A model generated the notes under the pieces. The model was not told where the DNA came from. It ran no database searches and saw only the letters and a program-made list of their open reading frames with translations. From assembly GCA_001769655.1 (NCBI GenBank), contig MEPC01000006.1, forward strand, positions 1 through 56,520: a DNA stretch of 56,520 nucleotides, in the 5' to 3' direction. Position 1 is the stretch's first letter. Each line of letters opens with the position of its first letter. This document shows positions 1 through 19,786 of the stretch, in pieces. The position numbers were made by a program, and so were the translations under genes. Source of the stretch: Bacteroidetes bacterium RIFCSPLOWO2_12_FULL_37_12 (lineage in GTDB: Bacteria; Bacteroidota; Bacteroidia; 2-12-FULL-37-12).

Positions 1-485
1 TTATGCAAATTTATGAAGTAAACTGGTAAACTGAAATACGTTAGCTTGAGAAGTCAATGGGACGGTATAGGGAGGATTTCCGCTAACGGCAGTCCGTCTA
101 AAAACTACTTTCACCAGCAAAAATACACAAAAACCGGATAGAATAGAAGCGATATACGGAAGGAAAAAAAAATAGACCGGAATGAAAATTAAAAATTTGG
201 TATCAACCTGTTTTGATATTTTGCTTTTAGGGAAGTCAAAAATCAAGAAAATAAAAAAATAAGTTCTCTCAGGAACTTCTTGAACATATTTTCATAAATA
301 TCGACACTCTTCTTTATTAACGAAATCCCCATAGAGGAAAAAAACACAACAATCAAAGGGAAAAAAACATCCGTCCAGAGGCAGATTTAGTGCAACAGTT
401 GCTGAATTGCAAGTCATAAGGGCGCAACGAGGTCTTGGTTGTTATCGGTGGTGCTTCTTTCATCCAGAACCATGTAGCAATTTTA
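1..485. other. Left-edge stretch with no supported gene
   Basis: No convincing gene is visible. A minus-strand frame over positions 1-246 could encode an 81-residue peptide with a hydrophobic stretch, but it opens only at a TTG, has an in-frame stop a short way upstream and resembles nothing I recognise. The rest, up to the small gene ending at 486, shows no coding frame, RNA gene or repeat that I can identify. It may contain decayed remains of the accessory region that follows. Confidence 0.5.
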
Positions 486-660: not shown

Positions 661-1179
661 TTATGATTTAAAATATTGTGAAATTAATCTCAGTGCTGCA
701 TTTGTTTCAATAAACATTCGAAGTCCACGAAAATGTGTTGCGAAGAGTGTGTCTTGATAGTGTTTGATTAATGCTGTCTTTGCATCAAAAGCAAGAAAAC
801 CTTGATAACCTTTATCTACCGATACCTTGCATGCAAAAGCAACAAGATTTCCCGGAACTCCTAAATATACTTTGTCTTTATGTTTATTGAACTTTGCGCT
901 TTCAATGAGATGCATAAAAATGTGATCTTTTTTGTCTTCAATACTTAGTAGCCCCTGAATAATAGTATGGTTATTTACTGTTGTAAGTTTATAAACCTGT
1001 TTGTCCCTATCTTTAATTTCCTTTGTCCAGTCAAATTGCCAGTCAGCTTTTATAATTTGGCTCAAATCTTTAATAGTAAGTTTTATAATCGCGGTGTCAA
1101 ACACTTCTCCCGTTAAAGTGTTTTCAATGGAGTTTGTTATTTTATCAATCACAAAGTCAAGAGGTCTTGATATTTTCAT
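661..1179 (-). CDS. GNAT-like acetyltransferase
   Basis: A 172-residue protein. The C-terminal half resembles the GNAT fold: YLGVPGNLVAFACKVS around residues 104-119, then a strand (QGFLAFDA), a helix (ALIKHYQDTLFATHF) and a last segment (RMFIETNAALRLISQYF) like the end of small bacterial GNAT enzymes. The acetyl-CoA loop is not a clean R/QxxGxG/A, so activity is uncertain. It is the first gene of a two-gene unit with the small basic ORF 4 nt downstream. Substrate unknown. GNAT-type toxins exist, so a toxin-antitoxin pair is possible but unproven. Confidence 0.6.
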   Translation of the reverse strand: MKISRPLDFVIDKITNSIENTLTGEVFDTAIIKLTIKDLSQIIKADWQFDWTKEIKDRDKQVYKLTTVNNHTIIQGLLSIEDKKDHIFMHLIESAKFNKHKDKVYLGVPGNLVAFACKVSVDKGYQGFLAFDAKTALIKHYQDTLFATHFRGLRMFIETNAALRLISQYFKS

Positions 1180-1278: not shown

Positions 1279-1401
1279 GATTAAAGAAGTAAAAAAAAGA
1301 AGGGTTTAGAACCACAACTGTTCGTTTACCTGCACTATTTATTAGAAGCTCAACTCTTTGTTTACCTCTCAAAGCCCTTCTTTTTTTTATTTCTTTTAAT
1401 C
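1279..1401. repeat. Long inverted repeat (about 26-bp arms, 70-nt loop)
   Basis: The left arm (1279-1304) and right arm (1375-1401) are reverse complements apart from one mismatch and one extra T. Both centre on AGAAGGG/CCCTTCT next to a run of A or T. The arms enclose 70 nt containing two copies of a TTTACCT-like word. It lies between the stop of the lysozyme-fold gene and the start of the GNAT-like gene. It could end transcription of the defence-like operon, be a small non-autonomous mobile repeat, or encode a structured RNA. Confidence 0.6.
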
Positions 1402-1468: not shown

Positions 1469-2278
1469 TTAGATGTTCGCTTTATTATCATGATGTTGTT
1501 TCAGTTTGCCTGAAAGCAACCCCGATTTAAGTTCCACATACTTCCCAAAGATGTTCGGCTGGGGAGTAGATTTTGTTTTATTATATTTTGAAATAGATTC
1601 TGAAACTTTGCCAGTATTATACAAGGTGCATAGAACTCCATTGTTATTGCTAATGTCAATTCCTGTTCCTGACTTAAAATTATCTCTAATAGTTTTTAAT
1701 TCAAACGCACAATATTCAATACTACAATTGGGTGTCATTAAGCATTTAATATTTTCCTTTACCGTTCTTTTGGAACGGTTTTCTACAAGTGAAAGCAAGC
1801 TGTCAATTTCAAGACTCTTCATTATTGATATTTGACATAAACCAATTGTCCAAATTAACCCATGCTGTAATCTGAATTTAAACTCTTGTTCAGATTCACC
1901 TGTTAATTTTTTGTTTTCAATCTTGTTTTTAGTAGCCTCTGCAAGTTGTTCTAAATATAAATCAGATTTTTCTAAAAAAACTTTCTGAACATAGTATTCC
2001 TCAAATTGATTTGCTGGACTTTTATGAAGACTTCTTTCTGCAATGATAACTCCCATAATTGCCTCTGGTGAAATCTTATAAAGTTCTGCCCACTTTATTA
2101 TTGTATCAATATTTTCTTCTATGTCCTTTACAGCAGAACTGTCAATCTCAATTTTATTAATGTCTGCTGATTGGTCTGGATATAATAACTTTCGGTAATC
2201 ACTTGACAGAAGTAACCATCCTCCAATTATTAAAAAAGTCAAAAGCAATAATGTAATGTAAATTTTATTCTTGGTCAT
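1469..2278 (-). CDS. Membrane-anchored lysozyme/transglycosylase-fold protein
   Basis: A 269-residue protein with one N-terminal membrane segment (residues about 6-24), so the rest should lie in the periplasm. Several stretches match the pattern of lytic transglycosylase-like domains: ISPEAIMGVIIAERS (candidate catalytic Glu at the AERS), IGLCQISI in place of the usual GLMQ(I/V)-type motif, and LYNTGKV in place of the common AYNAG. The match is remote, so hydrolysis of peptidoglycan is inference. It is the last gene of a four-gene operon; its ATG overlaps the upstream stop in a TAATG junction, implying translational coupling with the OmpA-like protein, which should also contact peptidoglycan. 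Confidence 0.6.
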   Translation of the reverse strand: MTKNKIYITLLLLTFLIIGGWLLLSSDYRKLLYPDQSADINKIEIDSSAVKDIEENIDTIIKWAELYKISPEAIMGVIIAERSLHKSPANQFEEYYVQKVFLEKSDLYLEQLAEATKNKIENKKLTGESEQEFKFRLQHGLIWTIGLCQISIMKSLEIDSLLSLVENRSKRTVKENIKCLMTPNCSIEYCAFELKTIRDNFKSGTGIDISNNNGVLCTLYNTGKVSESISKYNKTKSTPQPNIFGKYVELKSGLLSGKLKQHHDNKANI

Positions 2279-2862
2279 TATATGGCACTTGATATTGCCC
2301 CTCCATTAAATGTTCCTTCCATTAATTCAAATACATCTATTACCATTAGAGCGACATTATGTTTTTTGGTCTTGGGAAAACGAATCGGAACGTTCTGCCC
2401 AAAGCCGTCATAATAGATTCGTGAAGGCTCAATACCTTGTCCAACGATGATGTTTTTAATTCTCTCTGATGCCTTTCTACTTTCAGTTACTTTTTGAAAT
2501 TGGTCATTGTCAAGATTATCATCAGTATAACCGCCTACAACTAAAACGAGGTCGTTTCGTTGCTTTAATCTAAAAACAATATTTTTTATCGCAAGAGTTT
2601 GTTGATACGTAATGTCCTCACCAGTGGTTGATTCAAGGAAAACTGTATTTAATACAATTGGGCTATTACTAAAATTCGTTGTGCCCTTTGTTTTGACTTC
2701 AAGAAGGTCATTCTCTAATGGATTTATTAATGAAAAGACAAACCAAATAAGGATAGCTGTTCCTGATATTACAGAAATCAATGTTGGTATCCAATACTTC
2801 AGTGGCACACTGAATTTTTTATTCTTGTCTGAAAGGAATTCGTCCTCGGTAGTTTCTTGCAT
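2278..2862 (-). CDS. Single-pass OmpA/MotB-like peptidoglycan-binding protein
   Basis: A 194-residue protein with a charged cytoplasmic N-terminus, one transmembrane helix (residues about 25-46) and a C-terminal OmpA-like domain. The domain shows VVGGYTDD, then a helix with SRKASERIKNIIVGQGIEPSRI and YDGFGQNVPI, matching the family pattern GhTD...R...hL...GI...R...GyG...P. This topology is that of MotB and of ZorB in Zorya phage-defence systems, and differs from outer-membrane OmpA. No MotA/ZorA-like partner is encoded nearby. Third gene of the operon; 10 nt separate it from the HEPN-like gene. Confidence 0.75.
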   Translation of the reverse strand: MQETTEDEFLSDKNKKFSVPLKYWIPTLISVISGTAILIWFVFSLINPLENDLLEVKTKGTTNFSNSPIVLNTVFLESTTGEDITYQQTLAIKNIVFRLKQRNDLVLVVGGYTDDNLDNDQFQKVTESRKASERIKNIIVGQGIEPSRIYYDGFGQNVPIRFPKTKKHNVALMVIDVFELMEGTFNGGAISSAI

Positions 2863-5737: not shown

Positions 5738-7240
5738 TTAGGAAACAAGAAGATGATTATGGACAACGGAACTGATGTATTTATGCATTCCTGCCGCCGC
5801 CTTTCTACCATCACCCATTGCCAGTACAACTGTAGCTCCCCCCCTAACAATATCCCCTCCAGCAAATATTCCAGGAACCGTTGTCATCATGTTTTCATCC
5901 ACTTTGATGGTGTGCCTTGGCGTCATTTCAAGCTCCGGCATTGATTGTGGAATTAATGGATTTGGCGATACTCCAATGGCAACTATTACCATGTCAACGG
6001 CTACTTCCTCCTCCGATCCAGCCAACGGAACCGGACTTCTTCTTCCGGATTTATCCGGTTCTCCCAGAACCATTTTTTGTAGTATCATGTTCTTCACCCT
6101 TCCTTTTTCATCGGCATTGTATTTTATGGGTGAATACAAATTCAAAAACTCTATCCCTTCATCCAGGGCATGGTGAACTTCTTCTTTCCGTGCCGGCATT
6201 TCATCCCTCGACCTCCGATAGACAATCATCGCTCTTTCTGCTCCCAATCGTTTTGCGGTTCTCACCGCATCCATGGCTGTATTTCCACCTCCTATAACTG
6301 CTACCTGTTTGCCAACATATAAAGGAGTGTCAAAGTCCTTTTTCGAACCTCCCATCAGATTTACCCTTGTCAAAAACTCATTTGCCGATAAAACACCTAC
6401 CGAATTTTCACCGGGAATATTCATAAAATTAGGTAATCCGGCTCCACTTCCTACAAAAAATGCTTCGAATCCCTGCTTTTTCAATTCATCAATCGTTGCA
6501 GTTTTTCCAACTATAAAATTTGTCTTAAATTTTACACCCATTTTACGGATGGTTTCTATTTCTACATCTGCAATCATATTAGGAAGCCGGAAATCAGGAA
6601 TTCCATATTTAAGCACACCGCCTAATTTGTGGAGCGCTTCAAAAACAGTAACGTCATACCCAAATTTTGCAAGTTCACCAGCTACAGTAAGACCCGCAGG
6701 ACCGGATCCAATAATTCCTACTTTAATATGATTTTCAGGCATCATTTCAGGTATGGAAATTTTGCCGCTGTCTCTCTCATAGTCGGCAACAAATCGCTCA
6801 AGATAACCAATCGCGGCTGAGGGTGACTTTAGCTTTATGGTATAAAAACATTGTGCCTCACATTGAATTTCCTGAGGGCAAACCCTACCGCAAACCGCAG
6901 GCAGAGAATTCGTTTCTTTAATCACTTTTGCGGCAGAAAGAAAATCGCCTGATTCTACAAATTTTAGAAATTTAGGAATATTAATCCCAACGGGACATCC
7001 AGTAATGCAAGTCGGGTCAACGCAATCCAAGCATCTTTTTGCTTCCAACAACGCCTGTTCCACACTCAACCCTTTGTTTACCTCCACGTAACTTTTATTT
7101 CTTACCAAAGGATCCTCCTCAGGCATTTTTACCCTTTCAATTTTTGTTCTTTCTTTCGACTTTAACGATTTACGTAATTTGTCCCTCCATTCAGCCATTC
7201 TTTCATTGTGGTAGTATTCATTGTCTTGTGTTGTATCCAT
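5738..7240 (-). CDS. nfnB: NfnB/GltD-like flavoprotein, NADPH-dependent ferredoxin oxidoreductase large subunit
   Basis: A 500-residue protein. The N-terminal domain has two cysteine clusters for Fe-S centres (CLDCVDPTCITGCPVG near residue 70 and CGRVCPQEIQCEAQC near 117). Then come a FAD-binding GSGPAGLTVAGEL motif (about 178-190), an NADPH-binding GGGNTAMDAVRTAKRLGAE (about 316-335) and a second FAD contact (GIFAGGDIVRGGATVV). This is the glutamate-synthase small-subunit-like family. The partner just upstream is NfnA-like, so the pair most likely forms the bifurcating NADH-dependent ferredoxin:NADP+ oxidoreductase. A role as GltD is less likely since no gltB is near. The 5' end is ATG at 7240. 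Confidence 0.88.
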   Translation of the reverse strand: MDTTQDNEYYHNERMAEWRDKLRKSLKSKERTKIERVKMPEEDPLVRNKSYVEVNKGLSVEQALLEAKRCLDCVDPTCITGCPVGINIPKFLKFVESGDFLSAAKVIKETNSLPAVCGRVCPQEIQCEAQCFYTIKLKSPSAAIGYLERFVADYERDSGKISIPEMMPENHIKVGIIGSGPAGLTVAGELAKFGYDVTVFEALHKLGGVLKYGIPDFRLPNMIADVEIETIRKMGVKFKTNFIVGKTATIDELKKQGFEAFFVGSGAGLPNFMNIPGENSVGVLSANEFLTRVNLMGGSKKDFDTPLYVGKQVAVIGGGNTAMDAVRTAKRLGAERAMIVYRRSRDEMPARKEEVHHALDEGIEFLNLYSPIKYNADEKGRVKNMILQKMVLGEPDKSGRRSPVPLAGSEEEVAVDMVIVAIGVSPNPLIPQSMPELEMTPRHTIKVDENMMTTVPGIFAGGDIVRGGATVVLAMGDGRKAAAGMHKYISSVVHNHLLVS

Positions 7241-7281
7241 GTTGAAAATAAATTTTCAATTAAAAAAACCTCATCCCCCGT

Positions 7282-7306
7282 CCCCTTCTCCAAAATGGAG
7301 AAGGGG
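7282..7306. repeat. Short perfect hairpin between nfnA and nfnB
   Basis: CCCCTTCTCCA (7282-7292) and TGGAGAAGGGG (7296-7306) pair perfectly across a 3-nt loop, inside a CTCATCCCC...GGGGTGA context. A related motif occurs at 35002-35021. It lies in the nfnA-nfnB gap and could affect the balance of the two subunits. Confidence 0.7.
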
Positions 7307-7380
7307 TGACGTAAAACAAAAAATTTCTGAAATTATAAATTTTATTTGTATATTCAATTCAGTTAGAGTTTAAAAATATT

Positions 7381-8220
7381 TTATCGTTCGTCAAGCACCG
7401 GTTTAAGAGAGCATTGACTATAACTTTCTTCTTCCATTTCTTTATAAGCATTTAAACGCAAAAGCATCTCTTCAAAATTCACCTGATGAGCATCGAATTC
7501 AGGTCCATCTACACACACAAACGCTGTTTTACCATCAACGGTCACTCTGCAGGCACCACACATTCCTGTGCCATCCACCATAATGGTATTTAAACTTGCC
7601 ATGGTTTTTATTCCATATTTTTTAGTTAACAGCGCCCCGAATTTCATCATGATTGCAGGTCCGATAACAATTGCCAGATCCACTTTCTCCCGGTTAATTA
7701 TTTCCTCCATGCCTATGGTTATTAATCCTTTTTTCCCTCTGCTTCCGTCGTCTGTCATAATAATAACTTCATCAGAACATGCATTAATTTCTTTCTCCAA
7801 TAACAATAAATTAGCAGATTTAGCGGCAAGAACGGAAATCACTTTATTTCCGGCTTTTTTCATGGCGCTTACTATAGGGTACAAAGGGGCAACTCCTACT
7901 CCACCGCCGCAACATAAGACCGTTCCAACTTTTTCAATATGAGTGGATTTACCTAAGGGTCCTGCAACATCCAGAATAAAATCACCTTTCTCTAAAAGTG
8001 TTAATTTATGAGAAGTTACTCCCACTTTTTGTACAATGAGGGTAATAGTTCCCTTCTCAGGATCAGAATCAACTATAGTTAGTGGGACACGCTCTCCGGA
8101 TTCGTCAATCCGGATAATGACAAAATGGCCCGCCTTACGGCTCCTTGAAATTTCCGGCGCCTCAACAACTAATTTTACAACATTGGGAGATTGAAATTCT
8201 TTTTCAGTGATTTTATACAT
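7381..8220 (-). CDS. nfnA: NfnA-like FAD/NAD-binding and [2Fe-2S] subunit
   Basis: A 279-residue protein of the ferredoxin-NADP reductase type (sulfide dehydrogenase / DHODH electron-transfer subunit family). It has an N-terminal beta-barrel FAD domain with GERVPLTIVDSD, a pyridine-nucleotide domain with CCGGGVGVAPLYPIVSAM (about residues 103-120), and a C-terminal cysteine cluster MCGACRVTVDGKTAFVCVDGPEFDA for a [2Fe-2S] centre. The adjacent NfnB gene, 140 nt downstream, supports an NfnAB complex exchanging electrons between NADH, NADPH and ferredoxin. PyrK is an alternative, but no pyrD lies nearby. Confidence 0.88.
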   Translation of the reverse strand: MYKITEKEFQSPNVVKLVVEAPEISRSRKAGHFVIIRIDESGERVPLTIVDSDPEKGTITLIVQKVGVTSHKLTLLEKGDFILDVAGPLGKSTHIEKVGTVLCCGGGVGVAPLYPIVSAMKKAGNKVISVLAAKSANLLLLEKEINACSDEVIIMTDDGSRGKKGLITIGMEEIINREKVDLAIVIGPAIMMKFGALLTKKYGIKTMASLNTIMVDGTGMCGACRVTVDGKTAFVCVDGPEFDAHQVNFEEMLLRLNAYKEMEEESYSQCSLKPVLDER

Positions 8221-8312
8221 TGGAATAAAGTGAGAGAAAAGTGCAATAATACACTATGACTTTTTTTAAAAACAAAACTGAAGTCAGGTGCATGACTGAT
8301 AAAAGTCATTTC

Positions 8313-9836
8313 TTACTGCTCACTCTTCCTCGGCATGGTATGATCCCAGCGGCTTACAATCGTTTTTGTATCAGTATAAAAGTAGATAGAATGTTTGCCA
8401 TGCGCTTTTAAATCGCCAAAAAGTGATTCTTTTGCACCTCCAAAACTAAAGAATGCCATAGGTGCCGGCACTCCCAGATTAATACCAATCATTCCAATAT
8501 CAATTTTATAGGAAAATTCCCTTGCCGCAGAACCGCTGTCTGTAAATATAGAACTTGTGTTTGCGTAAGGATTTGAATTTATGATTGAAATGGCGTGGTC
8601 GAGGTCTTCTACTTTAATAATACAAACTACAGGTCCGAATATTTCTTCTTTCGCTATGGTCATTTCGGGTTTCACGTTATCAAAAATTGTTAACCCAAGA
8701 AAAAATCCGTTTTCATGACCGGGAACAGTGACATTACGTCCATCCATTAATAAGGTAGCGCCTTCTTTAATGCCGGTTTCAATATAACGTAAAACTTTTT
8801 CTTTATGAACTTTTGAAATTACCGGTCCCATGCCGGTATCCGGATATAATCCGTTTCCAACTTTAAATGTTTTAGCGATAGAAACCACTTTGTCACGAAG
8901 GCGCGGGTAAATATCTTTATGAGCTAAGATCACTGAACCAGCCAGGCAACGTTCACCGGCACAACCAAATCCGGAGTCACACATGACTTTAGCGGCTACA
9001 TCAATATTTGCATCGGGCATTGCAACCAGAAAGTTCTTTGCTCCTCCCAATGCCTGAACTCTTTTCCCATGCTTACAACCGGTTTCATACACATGTTTGG
9101 CTACCGGAGAAGAACCAACGAATGACACTCCTTTAACTAAAGGGTGAGTGCAAAAAGTATTTACGACATCTTTAGTTCCATTGACGAGATTGACCACTCC
9201 GGCGGGGAATCCACATTTGTCAATCAATTCAAAAATCTTCACTTGACTTAGTGGCACTTGTTCAGAAGGTTTCAATACAAAGGTGTTACCGCAAGCAACG
9301 GCATAAGGCAAAAACCACATGGGTACCATGGGTGGAAAATTAAAAGGAGCGATAGCAGTAAAAACACCGAGAGGTCTTCTTACACTGCGGCAATCAATTC
9401 CCTTGGCAATATCTTCAAAAGATTCACCCATGATTAAGGAAGGGATTCCGATGACATTATCAATATTATCAATGCCACGCCTTAAATCACCTCTGGATTC
9501 AATCAACGTCTTGCCATGTTCTATGGTACATAATCTTGCTATTTCTTCAAAATTTTCTTCCAGAAGATTTTTCCAACGGAAAAAATATTTTACTCTTTCA
9601 GCCGGTGGAGTTTCTCTCCAGGCGGGAAAAGCGGCTTGTGCCGCTTCAATGGCGCTACTCACATCTTTTCCCGTTGATACCGGAACGTGAGCGATGATTT
9701 CGCCGGTGGCGGAGTTGGTTACATCCAGATACTCGGTGGTTTCGGGTGTCACCCATTTACCATTGACGTAATTTTGAATTTTCTGTATCTCCTTTGCGGG
9801 AGATGTTTTCTTTTGGGGTGCTGTGAGTGTTTCCAT
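8313..9836 (-). CDS. mmsA: CoA-acylating methylmalonate-semialdehyde dehydrogenase
   Basis: A 507-residue aldehyde dehydrogenase. PFNFPPMVPMWFLPYAVACGNTFVLKPSEQ forms the cofactor region, GGAKNF (264-269) carries the Asn found in this subfamily where most ALDHs have the general-base Glu, and the catalytic Cys is C297 in GCAGERCLAG. These features separate it from other ALDHs. It converts methylmalonate semialdehyde (valine, thymine) or malonate semialdehyde (beta-alanine, uracil) to propionyl-CoA or acetyl-CoA. Dihydropyrimidinase and class III aminotransferase genes 7-10 kb away fit the pyrimidine/beta-alanine route. Monocistronic by spacing. Confidence 0.93.
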   Translation of the reverse strand: METLTAPQKKTSPAKEIQKIQNYVNGKWVTPETTEYLDVTNSATGEIIAHVPVSTGKDVSSAIEAAQAAFPAWRETPPAERVKYFFRWKNLLEENFEEIARLCTIEHGKTLIESRGDLRRGIDNIDNVIGIPSLIMGESFEDIAKGIDCRSVRRPLGVFTAIAPFNFPPMVPMWFLPYAVACGNTFVLKPSEQVPLSQVKIFELIDKCGFPAGVVNLVNGTKDVVNTFCTHPLVKGVSFVGSSPVAKHVYETGCKHGKRVQALGGAKNFLVAMPDANIDVAAKVMCDSGFGCAGERCLAGSVILAHKDIYPRLRDKVVSIAKTFKVGNGLYPDTGMGPVISKVHKEKVLRYIETGIKEGATLLMDGRNVTVPGHENGFFLGLTIFDNVKPEMTIAKEEIFGPVVCIIKVEDLDHAISIINSNPYANTSSIFTDSGSAAREFSYKIDIGMIGINLGVPAPMAFFSFGGAKESLFGDLKAHGKHSIYFYTDTKTIVSRWDHTMPRKSEQ

Positions 9837-9888
9837 GGCGCTTGATTCGGATAGTTTACTTTGTTTTCAATTTTAAAATTCGTGCTCG

Positions 9889-9896
9889 CAAATATA
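9889..9896 (-). promoter_or_regulatory. Putative -7 box for mmsA
   Basis: TATATTTG on the minus strand, 52 nt upstream of the mmsA ATG, fits TAnnTTTG. The -33 element is not clear. Confidence 0.4.
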
Positions 9897-9937
9897 CGAT
9901 TTTTATGGGACTATTTCATTTAGATTGCGTAATCTAT

Positions 9938-11206
9938 CTAATATAGCGGAAACCCTTCCGCCAACTTGTGCACTTCCTCTTTTACAGCGTGAATAACACT
10001 TTCATTCGTTGGATTCATCAACGCCTTATCAATTAATTCCACTATTATTTTCATCTCGTTTTCTTTCAATCCGCGGGTAGTGACAGCAGGCGTTCCTACA
10101 CGTATTCCGGAAGTGACAAAAGGCGACTTGTCATCATAAGGAACCATGTTTTTATTTACGGTGATATCGGTTTTTATCAAGGTATCCTCCGCAAGTTTGC
10201 CGGACAGCCCTTTCGAACGCAGGTCAATGAGCATGCAATGGTTATCAGTGCCACCGGAAATAATCTGATATCCACGATTATTAAATTCCTGTGCCATGAC
10301 AGTGGCATTTTTCATAATTTGAATGCAATAATTTTTAAAATCCTCCGTCAGCGCTTCTCCAAATGCCACTGCTTTGGCGGCTATGACATGTTCCAGCGGT
10401 CCACCTTGCGTTCCGGGGAAAACAGCTCCATCCACAATAGCCGACATTTTTTTTATAGTCCCTTTTGGAGTGGTTAAGCCAAAAGGATTATCAAAGTCCT
10501 TTCCTATCATAATCATTCCGCCTCTGGGTCCTCGTAACGTCTTGTGGGTTGTAGTAGTAACAATATGACAGTGTTGCATGGGATTATTTAATAACCCTTT
10601 AGCAATTAGACCTGCCGGATGAGAGATATCAGCCATCAAAATAGCTCCAACCTTGTCAGCTATTCTGCGGAACGAATCATATTCCCAATCCCTCGAATAA
10701 GCGGAAGCGCCGCAAATAATCAATTTCGGTTTTTCTCTTAGTGCAATTTCTTCAATTTCATTATAGTCCACTCTGCCGGTTTCTTTTTTAACACCATAAA
10801 AAACCGGATTATATAATTTACCTGAAAAATTAACCGGAGACCCATGAGTGAGATGACCGCCATGAGACAAATTAAACCCCAGCATTTTATCGCCGGGTTT
10901 CAATACGGCAAGCATGACAGCGGCATTTGCCTGTGCGCCGGAATGAGGTTGCACATTTGCCCACTCTGCCCCGAATAACTGACAAGCACGGTCAATGGCT
11001 AATTGCTCCGATTCATCTACAAATTCACATCCTCCATAATAACGCTTGCCGGGAAGTCCTTCCGCATATTTATTGGTAAGACAACTTCCCATTGCCTGCA
11101 TTACTTGTTGGCTTACAAAATTTTCGGATGCAATGAGTTCAAGCCCGGTTCGCTGGCGGCTGAGTTCTTTTTCAATGATAGAAAATAGTTGGGTGTCTGT
11201 GTGCAT
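9938..11206 (-). CDS. glyA: Serine hydroxymethyltransferase
   Basis: A 422-residue PLP enzyme interconverting serine and glycine while charging tetrahydrofolate with a one-carbon unit. Visible landmarks: [17 protein letters not shown] near the N-terminus, [16 protein letters not shown], the HSGAQAN loop, and the PLP-lysine motif [15 protein letters not shown] near residue 220. Length is normal. It starts 36 nt after the htrA-like gene ends and has its own -7 box in that gap, so it is probably transcribed alone. Confidence 0.97.
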
Positions 11207-11225
11207 AATTCGAAATGATTATGCA

Positions 11226-11233
11226 CAAAGGTA
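11226..11233 (-). promoter_or_regulatory. Putative -7 box for glyA
   Basis: TACCTTTG on the minus strand, 19 nt upstream of the glyA ATG, in the short gap behind the protease gene. The -33 position would fall inside the 3' end of that gene and shows no clear TTG. Confidence 0.45.
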
Positions 11234-11242
11234 AATAAAAAA

Positions 11243-12703
11243 TTATTCCAGTTCTATTCCATAAAAAACTTTTCTACCTCTGGAATAATAACCTTCTATT
11301 AACACGCCCCCTTTGCGGTTTTTAAGACATTTTTTTAAATCATCAGGAGTATAAACCGGACGGTTATCAATCCCGGTGATAACAAAACCGGGTTCAATGC
11401 CAATATCTCTGAATTTAGAACTTCCTGTGCTTTCTACTTTAACTCCGTATTTTAATCCCATCCGGTTTTTTTCATCGGAAGACAAGGTAGAGAAATCTGC
11501 ATTCATAAACGAAAACTTCTCTTCTTTTTCCTTTTTAATTGTTTCTGTGTTCCCCTGAAGATTTTTGAGCACCACATCATACGTTAGGGTTTTCAAATCA
11601 CGGTTAATCGTAATTTTAACTTTCTCACCTGGACGAAATTGACCTACCAATTCCTGCATTTCAGAGGATGAATTAACCGGATGTTCGTTGATGGCTAAAA
11701 TAACATCTCCATTTTTAATGCCGGCGGTTTCAGCGGCTCCACCCTCCAATACATTGGCTACATAAATCCCTTTAATTTCTTTAAGATTTTTTTCCCTGGC
11801 TAAATCTGCGTCCACCGATTGCATTGATATACCAATAAATGCTCTTTGAACGACTCCATACTTTAAAAAATCATCAATTATTTTACGGGCAAGATTACTG
11901 GAAATAGCAAAACCATACCCTGCATAAGAACCTGTCTGGGATGCAATGGCTGTGTTTATGCCAATTAATTCACCTGAAAGATTAACTAAAGCGCCACCAC
12001 TATTCCCGGGATTAATTGCGGCATCTGTTTGAATAAAAGATTCAATTGCATAAGGATAAGCTCCTTTATTAAAGATATTTATGTTTCTACCTTTTGCACT
12101 GATAATACCTGCCGTAACGGTGGACGTAAGATTAAATGGATTTCCTACTGCCAGCGCCCATTCACCTACCTGAACTTTTTCGGAATCACCAAATTTTATA
12201 AATGGGAGTTCTTTGGCATCTACTTTTAGCAGTGCCAAATCTGTATTCGGGTCCGTGGAAATAACATTTGCTTTGAAAGTTCTTTTATCATTTAAAGTTA
12301 CCTGAATTTGTGTAGCTCCTTCTACCACATGATTATTGGAGACAATGTACCCGTCGGGCGAAATGATAACTCCGGAACCGGCGGATACTTTTGGACTTTG
12401 CGGTTGGTTAAAAAACCAGAAAAAGTCACGGTAGTAATCCGGAATAGGACCGTTTGGATTAGTTCCCTCTATAATCGTTTGAATATGAACGACTGCGGGG
12501 GTGCTTACCTGAGCGGCAAGAACGAAATCAGGGGTAACGGCATCCTGACTACGGATTGTGCTGGACTGAGCAGGAAGCTGAACAAGGGCAACCGGAGGAG
12601 TGGAAGAAACAGGTAGTGAATTAGATGTATTATAATTTATTATGTAGGTTCCAAGCCCTCCTCCCAGGATGGCAACAAGGAATATTGCAAAGTATTTACG
12701 CAT
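11243..12703 (-). CDS. HtrA/DegP-family periplasmic serine protease
   Basis: A 486-residue protein with an N-terminal membrane anchor or signal (residues 4-22, GGGLGTY). The trypsin-like domain has an apparent triad H125 (SNNHVVEG), D155 (DPNTDLALLK) and S235 (NPGNSGGAL). PDZ1 covers about 285-385 (FIGISMQSV...GIKNGDVILAINEHPV). A shorter second PDZ-like segment ends the protein (IGIEPGFVITGIDNRPV). It should act in the periplasm in protein quality control under stress. dapF is divergent with about 117 nt between the two starts. Confidence 0.95.
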   Translation of the reverse strand: MRKYFAIFLVAILGGGLGTYIINYNTSNSLPVSSTPPVALVQLPAQSSTIRSQDAVTPDFVLAAQVSTPAVVHIQTIIEGTNPNGPIPDYYRDFFWFFNQPQSPKVSAGSGVIISPDGYIVSNNHVVEGATQIQVTLNDKRTFKANVISTDPNTDLALLKVDAKELPFIKFGDSEKVQVGEWALAVGNPFNLTSTVTAGIISAKGRNINIFNKGAYPYAIESFIQTDAAINPGNSGGALVNLSGELIGINTAIASQTGSYAGYGFAISSNLARKIIDDFLKYGVVQRAFIGISMQSVDADLAREKNLKEIKGIYVANVLEGGAAETAGIKNGDVILAINEHPVNSSSEMQELVGQFRPGEKVKITINRDLKTLTYDVVLKNLQGNTETIKKEKEEKFSFMNADFSTLSSDEKNRMGLKYGVKVESTGSSKFRDIGIEPGFVITGIDNRPVYTPDDLKKCLKNRKGGVLIEGYYSRGRKVFYGIELE

Positions 12704-12820
12704 GATTATTTGGTTAATTGTGAAAAATTAGAACGTGAAAAAATATTTTTGGTTACTTTATTCTTATTCAGAAATATTTATGTTAAAATTGTGGCTCCTT
12801 CTCCAATTGTTCCAACCAAC

Positions 12821-13606
12821 ATGATTTTTCCTTTTATTAAATACCAGGGAACCGGTAATGATTTTATACTTTTTGAATCCTCAAAAATACTGGAAGATTT
12901 TCTAACACAGGCAAAAATAAAAGAATTATGTGACCGGCATCTTGGAATTGGCTCCGATGGGCTAATTTTACTATGTAAAAATGCACAATATGATTTCGAG
13001 ATGAAATTTTATAACCCGGATGGAAAGTTAACAAGTTTATGTGGAAACGGGAGTCGTTGTGCGGTTCATTATGCCATTGAGAGGGGAATAGTAAAATCCA
13101 AAACAGTTAATTTTCTTGCATCCGATGGAGCACATTCAGCCGAATTAATTGGTCCAAACATTATCCGCATTAAAATGAAGAATGTGGAAAAATTCAACAA
13201 AGGAAAGCGATATTTTATTTTTGATACCGGTTCGCCTCATTACATTTTGTTTACAAGGTCTGAAATCAATACCTATAAGTTAATTAATACGGCAAAAAAA
13301 ATACGTTTCTCAGAAAAATTCAAAGCCAAAGGAATAAATGTCAACATTGCCAGAATACGCAAAAAAGGGATTGAGATAAGAACGTATGAAAGAGGGGTTG
13401 AGGATGAAACGTTGTCATGCGGTACAGGAGTGGTAGCTGTTGCGCTGGCATCTTACCTATACTCCGGAAGTGGTGATAATGTAACTGTTTTTACCAAGGG
13501 AGGAGAGTTAAAAGTAAAATTTCTATTTGATGAAGAAAAAAAATTTCATGAAATCTTTCTGGAGGGAGCGGTTGTAAAAATTTTTGAGGGGAAAGTAGAA
13601 TTTTGA
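12821..13606 (+). CDS. dapF: Diaminopimelate epimerase
   Basis: A 261-residue enzyme converting LL- to meso-diaminopimelate for lysine and peptidoglycan synthesis. The two catalytic cysteines are C74 (SLCGNGSRC) and C200 (LSCGTGVVA); the N-terminal FIKYQGTGNDF is typical. I place the start at the ATG at 12821, which gives the family N-terminus. The frame is open further up to 12710, but those 37 residues have no counterpart in the family and overlap the likely promoter region (TATTTTTG at 12744). The gene stands alone. Confidence 0.95.
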   Translation: MIFPFIKYQGTGNDFILFESSKILEDFLTQAKIKELCDRHLGIGSDGLILLCKNAQYDFEMKFYNPDGKLTSLCGNGSRCAVHYAIERGIVKSKTVNFLASDGAHSAELIGPNIIRIKMKNVEKFNKGKRYFIFDTGSPHYILFTRSEINTYKLINTAKKIRFSEKFKAKGINVNIARIRKKGIEIRTYERGVEDETLSCGTGVVAVALASYLYSGSGDNVTVFTKGGELKVKFLFDEEKKFHEIFLEGAVVKIFEGKVEF

Positions 13607-13654
13607 AAATTTTATGACTTGCGGTTCGAGAGTAAATAAAAAATTTCTTGTTAC

Positions 13655-14179
13655 TCAAAAATAAATATTTGCAGCTACCATTGTTGCAGTATTTATTATC
13701 ACTCCTCCAGGATTACCAAAACGATAAGAATCAGCGTTTGATTTAGTAACGTTTCCTTGAAATTCAACATTTATACTGAATTGTCTATCGAAGAAATATT
13801 CTCCTCCCACTGCGATACCTCCATATAAATCAGTTATTGTTTTCTGTTGATTGTAGATTGTTTTATTTGGCATGTTGCTTATAAAACCAATCTTAAAACC
13901 TGCATAAGGAGAAATTTTCTCATGCTTAATATATATTTTTGAAACCAGCCCAAGGCCAATATCTGTTCCAAATTCTTCCGCATATATTAATTGAAAAGAT
14001 GGACCTAATGTTGCACGTTCACCTAACCAAATAGGAAGGTTCATGCCGTATTGGATCCCTTGTAAAGTAGCACTTAAGCCAAAAGTTCTTTTGTTACTAT
14101 CATTTTGCGAAAAAACGATTGATGCAATAGATAATAAATAAAGCACCAAAATTAATGATAAAGTTTTTTTAAAAGTCAT
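13655..14179 (-). CDS. Putative outer-membrane beta-barrel protein
   Basis: A 174-residue protein with a clear Sec signal peptide ending near SIVFSQN (residue 25). Alternating strands rich in Gly and aromatics follow (GPSFQLIYAEEF, GLGLVSKIYI, SPYAGFKIGF, YGGIAVGGEYFF), and the protein ends in a strand with C-terminal Phe, the usual outer-membrane signature. This suggests a small 8-stranded barrel. Function not recognised. It is the last of three envelope genes in one operon (15579 to 13655); the gap to the lipoprotein gene is 6 nt. Confidence 0.7.
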   Translation of the reverse strand: MTFKKTLSLILVLYLLSIASIVFSQNDSNKRTFGLSATLQGIQYGMNLPIWLGERATLGPSFQLIYAEEFGTDIGLGLVSKIYIKHEKISPYAGFKIGFISNMPNKTIYNQQKTITDLYGGIAVGGEYFFDRQFSINVEFQGNVTKSNADSYRFGNPGGVIINTATMVAANIYF

Positions 14180-14185
14180 TTTATA

Positions 14186-14728
14186 TTATTGGTTTGTAAA
14201 ATAAATGTTATCCCATAACAAAACATTGTCAGTTTGTACATAAACTCTATAAAATCCGTCAGGAATTCGTTTCCCATTATTTTTACTACTGCCATTATTT
14301 TCAAATTTCTTCATTTCAATAAAGAAAAAATTCTCAATTGTTTCAAATTCAAGAATTGCTGTTCCACCAATTTTTGCAAGATTAGGATCAATTTCTGATT
14401 CAGAATTTTCTTCTGTATAGTAAATTGCCTGCGTTATCCAGATTCTTTTCAATATGGAATCCGCTGGCATTTTAAAATGAATATAAAGATAATCTGATGT
14501 TGGATTGGGAGTACACCTAAAATAATAATCGGAAGATTTAGAATCATTTGATTTATCACCTAATCTAATGTTTGGTATACCCTTTTTTCCTCTGAATTCA
14601 CCGTTTTCTCCTCTCAATTCAAATCCTGTTATTATTGGAGTGTCAAAACCCGGTAATCTCATTTCAACATCCTTCTTTTCACAAGATAATAGTAACATAA
14701 TAGGCAATAACCCTATATAAAATTTCAT
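14186..14728 (-). CDS. Lipoprotein with a sorting-domain-like beta fold
   Basis: A 180-residue protein. The signal ends in a lipobox (MLLLSCEKKD), predicting a lipidated Cys16. The C-terminal half begins CTPNPTSDYLYIHFKMP and ends IPDGFYRVYVQTDNVLLWDNIYF, which resembles the shape of type IX secretion type A sorting domains (PNP start, G-Y-V strands), but it has a lipid anchor and lacks the usual terminal basic tail. Its ATG overlaps the upstream stop by 4 nt. Role unknown; probably a surface or periplasmic partner of the two barrel-like neighbours. Confidence 0.6.
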   Translation of the reverse strand: MKFYIGLLPIMLLLSCEKKDVEMRLPGFDTPIITGFELRGENGEFRGKKGIPNIRLGDKSNDSKSSDYYFRCTPNPTSDYLYIHFKMPADSILKRIWITQAIYYTEENSESEIDPNLAKIGGTAILEFETIENFFFIEMKKFENNGSSKNNGKRIPDGFYRVYVQTDNVLLWDNIYFTNQ

Positions 14729-15579
14729 TTTTTTAACGTTTTATTGAGTAAATCAAAATTTAAAAATATTCCAAAAAACAAATTAAAAAATCTATACTTT
14801 ACATGTTTACTGTTTAAGCTAATCGTAGGAGTTATATTAAATTGATATTTTATATGTTCAAATCCATCTCTAAAAAAAAAGCCAGGTTCAATAAAAAATA
14901 AATCTAAATTTTTCTTTCCAACAAAATATACATTATCCAAATAAACTTCTGCATTATCAGGTTTAAATATCGTTACATTTATATCCGTATATCTGGTGTA
15001 AGAAAACCTTGAAAACAAACCAAATTCAATTTTATGTTTCGCGTCTGAATATTTATAACCTAAAACCGGCTGAATATATAAGTTTTTCTTGTTAACGGTT
15101 AAGTAAAAACTGTTATATAAATATGTTGCCATAAAGTTATTATAAAACATATCGCCAATTCCTCCAGCCAAAAGTATTTCAGTAAAAAAATTATTGTGTG
15201 TTTTGAAAATGCTTACTCCAAAATTATAATCATTTGATCCATATCTTCCGGAAATGTGCCCATCATGCTCACTTGAAAGCCCCGGCCAATTAGATCTATA
15301 TTCCCGTACCATAAAATCATAATCTCCGAATATGCTAAAATTATTAGATATTGAATACCCAACCTGTAAACCGGTATATGAAATATTAGATTTAAGCTCC
15401 CCTTTTTTCTCATTAACCGGAATATAGAGAGGACTGGAAACATATTGATAACCAACACAACCGGTAAAGAGTATAAAAATAAATATGCAAGAATAAAAAG
15501 ACAAGTTATTTTCAGTACTCTTTAAGTAAAATATCTTACCCAAAACATTAAAATTATTTCTATACTGATAATTACACAT
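14725..15579 (-). CDS. Putative outer-membrane protein with lipobox-like N-terminus
   Basis: A 284-residue protein. A hydrophobic segment (residues about 28-41) ends in LFTGCVGYQYVSSPLY, a lipobox-like site followed by the segment IPVNEKKGELKSNISY that I associate with a Bacteroidota family of unknown outer-membrane proteins. The remainder alternates polar and aromatic residues as in a beta-barrel. The chosen ATG leaves an unusually long N-terminus before the signal, so the true start may lie further in. It is the first gene of the three-gene envelope operon. Confidence 0.55.
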   Translation of the reverse strand: MCNYQYRNNFNVLGKIFYLKSTENNLSFYSCIFIFILFTGCVGYQYVSSPLYIPVNEKKGELKSNISYTGLQVGYSISNNFSIFGDYDFMVREYRSNWPGLSSEHDGHISGRYGSNDYNFGVSIFKTHNNFFTEILLAGGIGDMFYNNFMATYLYNSFYLTVNKKNLYIQPVLGYKYSDAKHKIEFGLFSRFSYTRYTDINVTIFKPDNAEVYLDNVYFVGKKNLDLFFIEPGFFFRDGFEHIKYQFNITPTISLNSKHVKYRFFNLFFGIFLNFDLLNKTLKK

Positions 15580-15663
15580 TTAACATTTCCCAATATATAT
15601 TTTTTTTAATGTTTTTTGGCAGAACCCACCAAAAAAAATATCTAATCTATGAACGTATTATCA

Positions 15664-17043
15664 CTATTCAAACGACTTCCTAACCAGATATTTTCCTCTT
15701 CCAGGTTTACCGAATGCCTTACCGTTTTTAAAAATAGTTTCCCCTCTGCTCAGTACCTCTGCAAATTCTCCCGTAACTTTCCATCCTTCAAACAAAGCAT
15801 AATCACAATTATGAAAATGATTTTTTGCGGAAATAGTCCATTCTGGTTTTGGATTAAAGATTGATAAATCAGCATCGGAACCAACTGTAATCGTACCTTT
15901 CGTCGGGTACATTCCAAAAAGTTTCGCCGCATTGGTAGAACCAAGTTCGACAAATCTGTTCAGATTGATTTTTTTTGTAAGAACTCCATACGTGTATAAT
16001 AAATTCAGGCGATGTTGAACAATAGGCGCTCCGTTGGGAATAAGACAAAAATTATTTTTCCCCATTTCTTTTTTCTTTTTAAAATCAAAGGGACAATGGT
16101 CAGTGCTTACCACAGAAAGATGACCAAGTTTCAAGGCAGACCATAAATAATCCTGGTCTTTTTTCTTACGGATAGGCGGACTCATTACAAATTTTGCTCC
16201 TTCAAAATTTGGTTTTTCATACACAGAATCATCAAGCAGAAGATATTGAATGCAGGTTTCGCCAAATACTAATTGCCCTTTTGCTCTGGCAGAAATTAAT
16301 CGGCTTACAGATTCCTCGCAAGTCATGTGCACGATATAAACGGGCCACTCAAGGTACCTCGCCAAATTAAAAGCACGTCCCGTTGCCTCGCCTTCTATAA
16401 TGGCAGGTCTTGAAAGCGGGTGATATTTTGGTGAAGTACAATCCCCGGCAATAAAATTTTTCTGCAACAGTGCCACTATGTCTCCATTTTCGCAATGAAT
16501 GGTAAGAAGCGCCTTGTGCTTTTTTGTTTGCTCTATGATTCTGAATAATTGTGAATCGTCAACCATCAAAGCGCCTTTATAAGCCATAAAACATTTGAAT
16601 GACTTGAAACCATTTTTAATGACTTCGGGAATTTCCTTTTCGATATAATCATTATAATCGGTGATTGCTACATGATGGCTGAAATCAATAAGCGCTTTTG
16701 GAACTGCCTTTTTTCGCCAGATTTCCAATGTCTCTTTTAGTGTTTGACCTTTTTCCTGAATGGCAAAGTCAATAACACTGGTAGTGCCACCAGCCGCGGC
16801 GGAGCGTGTGCCGGATTCAAAATCATCGGCGGAAGTTGTTCCCATAAAAGGCATGTCGAGGTGTACATGCGGGTCAATACCACCGGGAAAGACATAGTTA
16901 TTTTTTGCATCCAGCACTTCTTCACCGGTTTTAGGTTTTAGACAAGCCGCTATTTCAGAAATTTTTTCGTTTTGGATGCGGATGTCTGCATGAAATGTGT
17001 CATTGGCGGTAATGATAGTGCCATTTTTAATAAGTCGGTTCAT
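15664..17043 (-). CDS. hydA: Dihydropyrimidinase / D-hydantoinase
   Basis: A 459-residue amidohydrolase. Metal ligands: H59 and H61 (GGIDPHVHLD), the lysine likely carboxylated K156 (FMAYKG), H183 (TIHCENGD), a His in VYIVHMTCE and the Asp of STDHCPFD. This is the full dihydropyrimidinase set, opening the ring of dihydrouracil or dihydrothymine. The C-terminus is that of the family. It lies 49 nt downstream of the class III aminotransferase gene and is probably co-transcribed, supporting reductive pyrimidine degradation. Dihydropyrimidine dehydrogenase and beta-ureidopropionase genes are not in the window. Confidence 0.9.
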   Translation of the reverse strand: MNRLIKNGTIITANDTFHADIRIQNEKISEIAACLKPKTGEEVLDAKNNYVFPGGIDPHVHLDMPFMGTTSADDFESGTRSAAAGGTTSVIDFAIQEKGQTLKETLEIWRKKAVPKALIDFSHHVAITDYNDYIEKEIPEVIKNGFKSFKCFMAYKGALMVDDSQLFRIIEQTKKHKALLTIHCENGDIVALLQKNFIAGDCTSPKYHPLSRPAIIEGEATGRAFNLARYLEWPVYIVHMTCEESVSRLISARAKGQLVFGETCIQYLLLDDSVYEKPNFEGAKFVMSPPIRKKKDQDYLWSALKLGHLSVVSTDHCPFDFKKKKEMGKNNFCLIPNGAPIVQHRLNLLYTYGVLTKKINLNRFVELGSTNAAKLFGMYPTKGTITVGSDADLSIFNPKPEWTISAKNHFHNCDYALFEGWKVTGEFAEVLSRGETIFKNGKAFGKPGRGKYLVRKSFE

Positions 17044-17092
17044 TGGATTTTTGTTTTTGGAATATTTTCTATTTGCTATTTTCTATCTTCTA

Positions 17093-18439
17093 TTAAATTG
17101 TTAAATCATCAGCGATTTTCAAACATTCATCTAACACATTCAATCCTTGTTTTATTTCATCTTTGGAAATTATCAATGGAGGTGCAATTACAAAGTGGTT
17201 TACCCAGGAAACAATAAATACTCCTTTTTTCATCATTTCACCGGCAATTTTATCAACTAAAATACTTGCTCCCTGAGTTACTTTATCTTTTTTTTCATTG
17301 AATGGAGTTTTCTTTTCTCTGTTTTTTACCAATTCAACAGCCCAAAACATTCCTTTGCCGCGGATGTCACCGACAGACGGGTGTTTTGTTTTAATTTTTT
17401 CAAGTTCTGATTTAAAAAAACCTTCCATACCGGATGCTCTTTCAATTAAATTTAATCGTTTATATTCGTTAATAGCGGCAACGGCAGGAGCAAGTGTTAG
17501 AGGATGTGCTTCGTAAGTATGACCGTGTGCGAAGTAATGGTCTTCAAAAAAGTCAGCAATTTTCTGAGTCGTTGCGGTTAAACCCAGTGGCACCGCGGCA
17601 GACGTGATTCCCTTTGCAGTATACAAAATATCGGGTTTTATATTCCAGTGATCAACGGCAAACCATTTCCCGGTTCTACCCCACCCTGTCATCACTTCAT
17701 CGGCAATCAATAATACATTATGAGCGTCACATATTTTCCTGAGACGGGGAAAATATTCATCAGGTGGCACTAAGACGCCGTTTGTGCCTACAATGGGTTC
17801 CAGAAGAACAGCGGCAACATTATTCTCGTTTTGTATCATATACTCAATGTACTCAACGCAGGAAATGTCACAGCCCGGATAGCTTTTACCCATAGGACAA
17901 TGATAGCAATTACATTCAGGCGCAAAAATAACTCCGTCAATTTTTCCGGCAGGTTCTGCTGACCATCTTCTCATGTCACCGGTGCAGGAAATTCCCGAAG
18001 CTGTGGAGCCATGATATGAATTATATCTTGATATAATTTTATATTTTCCGGTGTACATGCGGGCAATTTTTACTGCCGCTTCGTTTGCTTCAGTGCCGGA
18101 GGTTGTAAAAAAATATTTAGTAAGTCCTTCGGGTAGAACCTCCAGTAATAATTTTGTAAGTTCAACTCTGGCATCGGTTGCATAACCCGGTGAAATAAAT
18201 GCCAACTGTTCTGCTTGTTTCGCAATGGAATCAACAATGGCTTTATTTTTATGCCCGAGGTTTACGCACATTAATTGCGATGAAAAATCGAGATATTTTT
18301 TTCCGGAATCATCGATAAAAAAACACCCTTCGGCATCTTTTACGTGCAAGGGTTTCCATCCTTTCTGGAATTTCCAGGTTCCGTAGGTATAGCGTGCTGT
18401 AATTTCGGAGGCAGTGCCTTGGGTGAATGTGTTGCGCAT
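17093..18439 (-). CDS. Class III PLP-dependent aminotransferase
   Basis: A 448-residue omega-amino-acid:pyruvate type transaminase. Landmarks: FTTSGTEANEAAVKIAR, SYHGST, ECNCYHCPMGKSYPGC (a Cys-rich segment I associate with taurine/beta-alanine-type enzymes), LIADEVMTGWGRTG, and the PLP Lys in YTAKGITSAAVPLG. Beta-alanine:pyruvate transamination is the likely role given the neighbouring dihydropyrimidinase and the nearby malonate-semialdehyde-type dehydrogenase. Taurine:pyruvate transaminase is the main alternative. Confidence 0.85.
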   Translation of the reverse strand: MRNTFTQGTASEITARYTYGTWKFQKGWKPLHVKDAEGCFFIDDSGKKYLDFSSQLMCVNLGHKNKAIVDSIAKQAEQLAFISPGYATDARVELTKLLLEVLPEGLTKYFFTTSGTEANEAAVKIARMYTGKYKIISRYNSYHGSTASGISCTGDMRRWSAEPAGKIDGVIFAPECNCYHCPMGKSYPGCDISCVEYIEYMIQNENNVAAVLLEPIVGTNGVLVPPDEYFPRLRKICDAHNVLLIADEVMTGWGRTGKWFAVDHWNIKPDILYTAKGITSAAVPLGLTATTQKIADFFEDHYFAHGHTYEAHPLTLAPAVAAINEYKRLNLIERASGMEGFFKSELEKIKTKHPSVGDIRGKGMFWAVELVKNREKKTPFNEKKDKVTQGASILVDKIAGEMMKKGVFIVSWVNHFVIAPPLIISKDEIKQGLNVLDECLKIADDLTI

Positions 18440-18462
18440 GGGGTTAGTTTTAAGGGGCTAAA

Positions 18463-19044
18463 TTAATGAAAATTTTTTAGTTCTTTATATCTGTAACAGC
18501 TAATCAGATGGTCATTGATCATTCCAGCCGCCTGCATGAAGGCGTAACAAATAGTGGAACCCACAAATTTAAACCCTTTCTGAAGAAGGTCCTTGCTCAT
18601 TTTATCAGAAATTATTGTTTTTGAAGGCAATTCTTGTAAGGATTTCCATTTATTTATAATTGTTTTCCCACCGGTAAATTGCCAAATATATTTATCAAAA
18701 GAGCCATAAGATTTCCGGATGGCAATAAATGCCTTGGCGTTTGTAATTGTTGCATTTATTTTCAACCGGTTTCTGATAATGCCGGCATCTTGCATCAGTT
18801 TTTCAATTTGTTTTTTTCCATAAATTGAAATTTTTTCGGGGTCAAAATTTTTAAACGCTTTTCTGAAATTTTCCCGTTTGTTAATAACGGTGCTCCAGCT
18901 TAATCCTGCCTGAAAAGAATCAAGAAGCATGTACTCAAAAAGTTTCCGGTCATCATGCAGTGGCACTCCCCACTCTTCATCATGATAGTTTTTCATTTTT
19001 TCTGAGGAAAGACACCAGGGGCATCGGGTTATTAAGGTTTTCAT
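18463..19044 (-). CDS. tag: DNA-3-methyladenine glycosylase I
   Basis: A 193-residue base-excision enzyme. It opens with TRCPWCLSSEKMKNYHDEEWGVP, has FEYMLLDSFQAGLSWSTVINKRENFRKAF, and ends with GSTICYAFMQAAGMINDHLISCYRY. The Cys and His residues near both ends form the zinc snap of the Tag family. I use the ATG at 19044; the open frame continues to 19152, but that part overlaps the pseudouridine synthase gene and matches nothing in the family. Third gene of a tight operon with hemC and the pseudouridine synthase gene (gaps of 11 nt). Confidence 0.95.
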   Translation of the reverse strand: MKTLITRCPWCLSSEKMKNYHDEEWGVPLHDDRKLFEYMLLDSFQAGLSWSTVINKRENFRKAFKNFDPEKISIYGKKQIEKLMQDAGIIRNRLKINATITNAKAFIAIRKSYGSFDKYIWQFTGGKTIINKWKSLQELPSKTIISDKMSKDLLQKGFKFVGSTICYAFMQAAGMINDHLISCYRYKELKNFH

Positions 19045-19055
19045 GATTTCATATT

Positions 19056-19775
19056 TTACCCCCACTTTTCTAATATCTTCAAACAGGTTGAAAAATCTTT
19101 CGGATAGGGGGCTGAAAAAGATAATGATTTTCCATCTATGGATTCGAAGCAAATTGATAATGCATGTAACGCAGTTCTTTTGATTAAGGGCTTAGGTTCT
19201 TCTTCTTTTTTATGCTTAAAATCTCTTTTTAAATCTGATAATGTCAGATGTTTTCCGCCGTATTCAACATCTCCTAAAATAGAAGAATTAAGGTAGGAAA
19301 GATGAACCCGTATCTGATGCATTCTACCGGTTTTGGGCTTACATTCTATCCATTGGCATTTTCTAAATTTTTTGAGTGAATTTAAAATAGTGACACTCTC
19401 TTTTCCATTGAGAATATCTATTTTTGCGTGGTTTCTGCTTGTAATAGAGATAGGAAAATCTGCTAAAAAATCTATAAAATCACGATTACCTGACGCTATT
19501 GCGTGATATATTTTTTCTATTTTATGATGTTCAAATTGCGCTGAAAGGTGTTTAAAAGAGGCATCGTTTTTGGCAAATACCATAACGCCGGAGGTTTCTT
19601 TATCGAGACGATGACATACTTTCAGCGCAGGGTTATAGTTGAGCAGGTTTTCATATAACGATTCCGGTTCATTTGCACTATTGTCCTGTAATGTCGAAAT
19701 ATAGGATGGTTTATTGATGATGAAATAATTTTCATCCTCAAAAAGAATCGTATTTTTTATAGCGGAAATATTCAT
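19056..19775 (-). CDS. RluA-family pseudouridine synthase
   Basis: A 239-residue enzyme. The catalytic motif is HRLDKETSGVMVFAK (near residue 56, Asp as nucleophile), with KPKTGRMHQIRVHLSYL for substrate binding and ALHALSICFES near the end. There is no S4 RNA-binding domain at the N-terminus, so it is the short form. RNA target not determinable. It sits between hemC and tag with 11-nt gaps on both sides; the three functions are unrelated, so co-transcription is probably of convenience. Confidence 0.92.
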   Translation of the reverse strand: MNISAIKNTILFEDENYFIINKPSYISTLQDNSANEPESLYENLLNYNPALKVCHRLDKETSGVMVFAKNDASFKHLSAQFEHHKIEKIYHAIASGNRDFIDFLADFPISITSRNHAKIDILNGKESVTILNSLKKFRKCQWIECKPKTGRMHQIRVHLSYLNSSILGDVEYGGKHLTLSDLKRDFKHKKEEEPKPLIKRTALHALSICFESIDGKSLSFSAPYPKDFSTCLKILEKWG

Positions 19776-19786
19776 ATAGTTTAGGA

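Follow-up and report, generated by a model that had tools for sequence, protein, structure and literature searches.

The stretch of DNA analysed here, referred to below as the window, comprises 56,520 nucleotides from contig MEPC01000006.1 of Bacteroidetes bacterium RIFCSPLOWO2_12_FULL_37_12, and the contig starts at window position 1. Close to this edge, four genes are packed on one strand between positions 4706 and 1469 (Table 1). The first two overlap by 17 bp and are followed by a 10-bp gap before the OmpA gene. The third and fourth genes are joined by TAATG, such that the OmpA stop codon and the transglycosylase start codon overlap by one base. A sequence-only reading of this locus had described these last two genes as coupled minus-strand open reading frames for an OmpA-like and a lysozyme-like protein, and both the reading frames and the junction were confirmed in the sequence. 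The coupling itself therefore stands, but the pair makes up only the second half of an operon of four genes, and that reading had missed the DGQHR and HEPN genes upstream. In terms of composition, the operon is AT-rich, with a GC content of 33.4% vs 37.6% for window positions 5738-20000, and its genes have a GC3 of 26-29% as opposed to 31-39% in flanking core genes. With respect to anatomy, the sequences and structural models show two predicted cytosolic proteins followed by two predicted single-pass inner-membrane proteins with periplasmic domains.

Table 1. Positions of the operon genes and associated sequence features in the window.
Feature	Position	Strand	Remark
DGQHR-domain (DndB/DpdB, ParB-superfamily) protein, 349 aa	3657..4706	-	operon gene 1
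HEPN-fold protein, 266 aa	2873..3673	-	operon gene 2
OmpA-domain single-pass inner-membrane protein, 194 aa	2278..2862	-	operon gene 3
DUF1402 lytic-transglycosylase-fold protein, 269 aa, membrane-anchored (predicted)	1469..2278	-	operon gene 4
TAATG stop-start junction of the OmpA and transglycosylase genes	2276..2280	-	direct sequence reading
Inverted repeat: 28-nt arms, 89% complementary, 58 nt spacing	1283..1396	n/a	

The inverted repeat separates the operon from the following gene and is a possible terminator or element end; the distance from the operon end to the next ORF is 290 bp. A 172-aa ORF downstream of the operon (window 661-1179, minus strand) has no Pfam, PADLOC or NCBIfam match. 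Further towards the contig edge, positions 73-443 hold a dispersed repeat of ~370 bp with 33 matching places in the genome at roughly 80-91% identity. In those clusters that were examined, copies are interspersed with genes for restriction-modification (MvaI/BcnI and SacI types), a KAP NTPase, an AAA ATPase and PIN proteins, as if the repeat separated gene cassettes, and such surroundings fit a region that has accumulated many acquired defence genes. Repeat copies are also present on contigs C24, C39, C1, C4 and C42 of the same genome (L194-L197). Window positions 1-78 are identical over 78 bp to the end of another contig (C22:27230-27307; L193), and a hairpin-like sequence of similar look is seen at both places.

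The product of the last gene matches Pfam DUF1402 (PF07182) with 54.7 bits, relative to a gathering cut-off of 27. It has an N-terminal transmembrane segment at residues 6-24. As a lipobox is absent, the domain following this anchor is predicted to be periplasmic. Structure prediction, which the sequence-only reading had named as the check on its proposed lysozyme fold, bore the proposal out. Specifically, the top structural matches of the AF2 model (pLDDT 81, pTM 0.72) are solely lytic transglycosylases and g-type lysozymes, with Z-scores of 13.4 for MltE, 13.1 for Tse3, 12.4 for Slt, 11.8 for MltC and 9.9 for goose lysozyme; MltF is also among the leading matches, and MltE superposes with an rmsd of 3.1 over 159 residues. 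As the Foldseek E-value for this model is not below 0.001, the assignment of a transglycosylase fold rests on the VIA Z-scores together with sequence motifs. These motifs comprise the predicted catalytic residue E81 (in IIAERS), GLCQ at residues 146-149 and LYNTG at residues 219-223. When the 269-aa protein was aligned with 29 rhizobial DUF1402 proteins, E81 was invariant in all 30 sequences, as were G146-L147-x-Q149, D208-I-S210, N212, G214 and T218-L-Y-N221-x-G223. Moreover, hhalign places E81 in register with the catalytic E64 of MltE, an alignment that is statistically weak and was used for register only. The earlier suggestion that the Glu of IIAERS occupies the catalytic position is thus in keeping with both its alignment and its invariance.

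The combination of E, GLMQ and YN is a pattern that we take to be characteristic of SLT family 1 transglycosylases, and the invariant residues of DUF1402 fit it. Taken together, the structural model and these residues lead us to predict that the 269-aa protein is a lytic transglycosylase or a close lysozyme-fold relative, and the same probably applies to the whole DUF1402 family. A family of unknown function that is common in Rhizobiales would thereby gain a concrete enzymatic prediction. The residue pattern and the model likewise suggest a family-level reannotation of DUF1402 (Rhizobiales genes L006, L007 and L015-L095), and a literature search did not find a DUF1402 paper. The protein resembles MltE and Slt of family 1 in its predicted fold and in the position of the catalytic Glu, whereas its sequence similarity to them is not significant, and it differs further in having an inner-membrane anchor and in sharing an operon with an OmpA protein. 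With the DUF1402 proteins of Rhizobiales it shares the Pfam family and the E81, GLxQ, DIS.N.G and TLYNxG positions common to all, but it is 22-27% identical to them and does not have part of their central insert. The rhizobial genes compared are also stand-alone, with neither an OmpA nor a DGQHR neighbour, and they adjoin housekeeping and envelope genes rather than defence loci, which counts against a defence reading of the locus described here.

Upstream of the transglycosylase gene, the 194-aa protein matches Pfam OmpA (PF00691) at E=8e-5, just under the cut-off, as well as NCBIfam OmpA lipoprotein models (down to E=9e-8) and OmpA/MotB domains in the PDB, the latter at residues 79-171. It contains a single transmembrane helix at about residues 28-46 (SVISGTAILIWFVFSLINP), which has no Asp. 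In the register taken from HMMER alignments, D114 and R129 are kept at the peptidoglycan-binding positions of OmpA/Pal-type domains. These features agree with the earlier description of a single-pass protein with a domain of the peptidoglycan-binding type. The cytosolic N-terminus preceding the helix, ~22 residues in length, is the only cytosolic stretch of the envelope pair large enough for binding a partner.

The sequence-only reading had gone further and likened the pair to Zorya, with the transglycosylase taking the place of ZorA as partner of a ZorB-like protein. The 194-aa protein does resemble ZorB in being single-pass, in its periplasmic OmpA domain and in its retained peptidoglycan-binding residues, and PADLOC returns a weak ZorB match; this match (E=0.003), however, covers the generic OmpA domain only, and the protein departs from ZorB in its operon and in lacking both a ZorA partner and the transmembrane Asp. 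In Zorya, D24/D21 of ZorB and ion flow are essential (PMC11890865). A profile search found no ZorA beside the pair, as the earlier reading had held, and the only MotA/ExbB-family genes of the assembled genome (97.9% complete) are two ExbB-type PF01618 genes on another contig with ExbD/TonB neighbours. Given the missing Asp and a PF01618 complement of ExbB type only, we conclude that the 194-aa protein is not a stator subunit. A 5:2 ion motor is, moreover, impossible for a single-pass lysozyme-fold protein, and a variant of the Zorya-type stator is accordingly a very improbable account of the pair. Neither of the two outcomes that the sequence-only reading had named as speaking against it, an adjacent MotA/ZorA gene or a non-lysozyme fold, turned up. 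It is the derivation from Zorya that has to be given up, and the "piercing effector" role that it proposed for the pair is best regarded as a putative one.

The first two genes of the operon are the part connected with phage defence. The 349-aa protein matches TIGR03187 (DGQHR) at E=1.3e-30, with 107 bits relative to a cut-off of 58.9, carries the DGQHR motif at residues 105-109 and matches Pfam DndB at E=2e-16. DGQHR proteins belong to the DndB/ParB-Srx superfamily as one of its branches (PMC4619093). Like DndB and DpdB, the protein has a DGQHR domain of the ParB/Srx-type superfamily, but its scores fall well short of the DndB and DpdB equivalog cut-offs. A Dnd/phosphorothioation locus was also considered and ruled out, as the genome has no DndC (no TIGR03183 match).

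For the 266-aa protein, the AF2 model (pLDDT 74) points to a HEPN fold, with 2hsb, 4nqf and 1ufb matching at Z-scores of 11.3, 10.3 and 10.1 and the next match at 6.0. Its Pfam HEPN score of 15.1 bits is below the cut-off of 22, and its relatives reach 19.1. The canonical catalytic His is absent, R164-x4-Y169 replacing the Rx4-6H motif, and this counts against a defence reading; outside the R-x4-Y motif, H130 is near-invariant in the HEPN homologues. Similar motif variation has been described for the HEPN proteins AbiV and AF0298, the latter being the 2hsb protein, and operons that combine genes for HEPN proteins and ParB-type nucleases are a described defence association (PMC3710099).

Near relatives of the DGQHR protein, with 39-56% identity, are found on 12 viral contigs, and all 12 loci have a HEPN homologue (28-36% identical to the 266-aa protein) directly downstream. 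The junctions are similarly tight, the two genes either overlapping by at least 16 bp or lying a few bases apart. With respect to location, the pair adjoins the portal gene of P2-like prophages at L148 and L207 and type I restriction genes at L150, and it lies near integrases at L203 and L206. At L147, its neighbour is the integrase of a P4-like element, which also has an Ogr/Delta gene. The portal and integrase placements at L148, L207 and L147 coincide with published anti-phage hotspots, namely the cos-proximal region by the portal gene of P2 and the integrase-adjacent region of P4 (PMC9122126). The pairs of P2-like and P4-like elements (L147, L148, L149, L201-L207) are thus homologous to operon genes 1 and 2, in the same order and with a similarly tight junction, but where the flank suffices no OmpA or transglycosylase gene follows them. 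Such genes are absent from the 12 near viral loci, two of which (L146 and L150) have too little flank, and from 18 further Bacteroidota DGQHR loci. More distant pairings of DGQHR with a partner gene occur in filamentous phage PfAC19, an Acinetobacter prophage, a Providencia plasmid, a Leptospira plasmid and a Dnd operon, again with no OmpA or DUF1402 neighbour at these loci.

The envelope genes, in turn, are rare. For the transglycosylase, no close relative was found in 394 other Bacteroidota genomes or in viral contigs, and a PF07182 search of 394 other genomes of the class returned no match; the one weak transglycosylase match, in genome G185, was rejected, as it sits in a dehydroquinate-synthase-like ORF. 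The only match in a phage search was to a tail protein at E=0.05, and plasmid and GTDB searches recovered rhizobial DUF1402 proteins only, at 20-33% identity. Similarly, searches of the 394 genomes (E<=1e-10), plasmids and viral contigs gave no close relative of the OmpA protein. Because neither gene has close relatives, the four-gene combination is known from one genome only, and, with the 12 viral and 18 Bacteroidota loci all without envelope genes, the case for a four-gene unit depends on this single genome at a contig edge. Our literature searches found neither a paper joining DGQHR and OmpA nor a transglycosylase as a defence effector, and we know of no defence system with a lytic transglycosylase as its effector.

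What, then, might the operon do? Since counterparts of its first two genes in phages and satellites are located at known anti-phage sites, the operon may be anti-phage. We infer joint action of the four genes, a function directed against phages and a role for the transglycosylase as an OmpA-tethered envelope effector. More fully, we tentatively propose, as a reading that is quite possible but short of probable, that the operon is an anti-phage system acquired by horizontal transfer, a mobile DGQHR-HEPN pair having gained an envelope arm in this lineage. The more specific version, in which the cytosolic pair controls the membrane-tethered transglycosylase via the OmpA anchor and infection is answered by cutting the host wall from the inner-membrane side, is unlikely enough that we offer it as speculation. 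In such a mechanism, the DGQHR/HEPN pair would sense invading nucleic acid or act on it. The OmpA protein would tether the envelope arm to the wall and position or license the transglycosylase, which would, upon infection, cut glycan strands from the membrane side. The outcome could be death of the infected cell or a local wall spoiled for phage entry or orderly lysis. The cytosolic part of the transglycosylase, just 7 residues, leaves almost nothing for control and counts against the four-gene reading.

The leading alternative is that a defence pair and an envelope pair have come to lie side by side by chance. Here, a mobile DGQHR-HEPN defence pair would neighbour an unrelated OmpA/transglycosylase pair, for example a wall-remodelling pair or what is left of a secretion or conjugation apparatus, with proximity as the sole link. 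Transglycosylases often accompany trans-envelope machines, the relatives of genes 1 and 2 never carry genes 3 and 4, and the DUF1402 relatives in Rhizobiales stand alone near envelope functions. The layout of the operon argues the other way, as genes 2 and 3 are just 10 bp apart, all four genes share a single strand and a uniformly low GC content, and none of the ORFs read around the operon is a secretion or conjugation gene. On balance, we regard two independent neighbours as somewhat unlikely.

Alternatively, the envelope pair may be a sensor rather than an effector, signalling the wall disturbance of phage entry to DGQHR/HEPN nucleases inside the cell. This would suit the retained peptidoglycan-binding residues of the OmpA protein, and it has a precedent in the published model of Zorya, in which ZorB-peptidoglycan binding is proposed as the trigger and wall damage is coupled to cytosolic nucleases (PMC11890865). 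In the present case, however, there is no ion channel or rotor partner and no transmembrane Asp, the cytosolic tails of about 22 and 7 residues are short, and the transglycosylase retains a catalytic Glu that a pure sensor would not need; a sensing role is distinctly unlikely.

Under the reading of the operon as one acquired system, an unclassified mobile pair of phages and satellites, found at defence hotspots, would here have been joined to a wall-cutting envelope arm. Taken by itself, the DGQHR-HEPN pair is also a candidate stand-alone two-gene defence system, testable as such and with many homologues. As to the wider set of DGQHR and HEPN-like pairs (L147, L148, L149, L201-L207 and, distantly, L142, L143, L008, L011 and L124), none of the proteins tested gave a PADLOC system match as a pair. 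These pairs lie at variable sites of prophages and satellites and, once, inside a Dnd operon. In a different setting for the domain, larger DGQHR proteins of ~760-800 aa adjoin D12-class DNA-methyltransferase-like genes (L129, L131, L155, L157, L165 and others).
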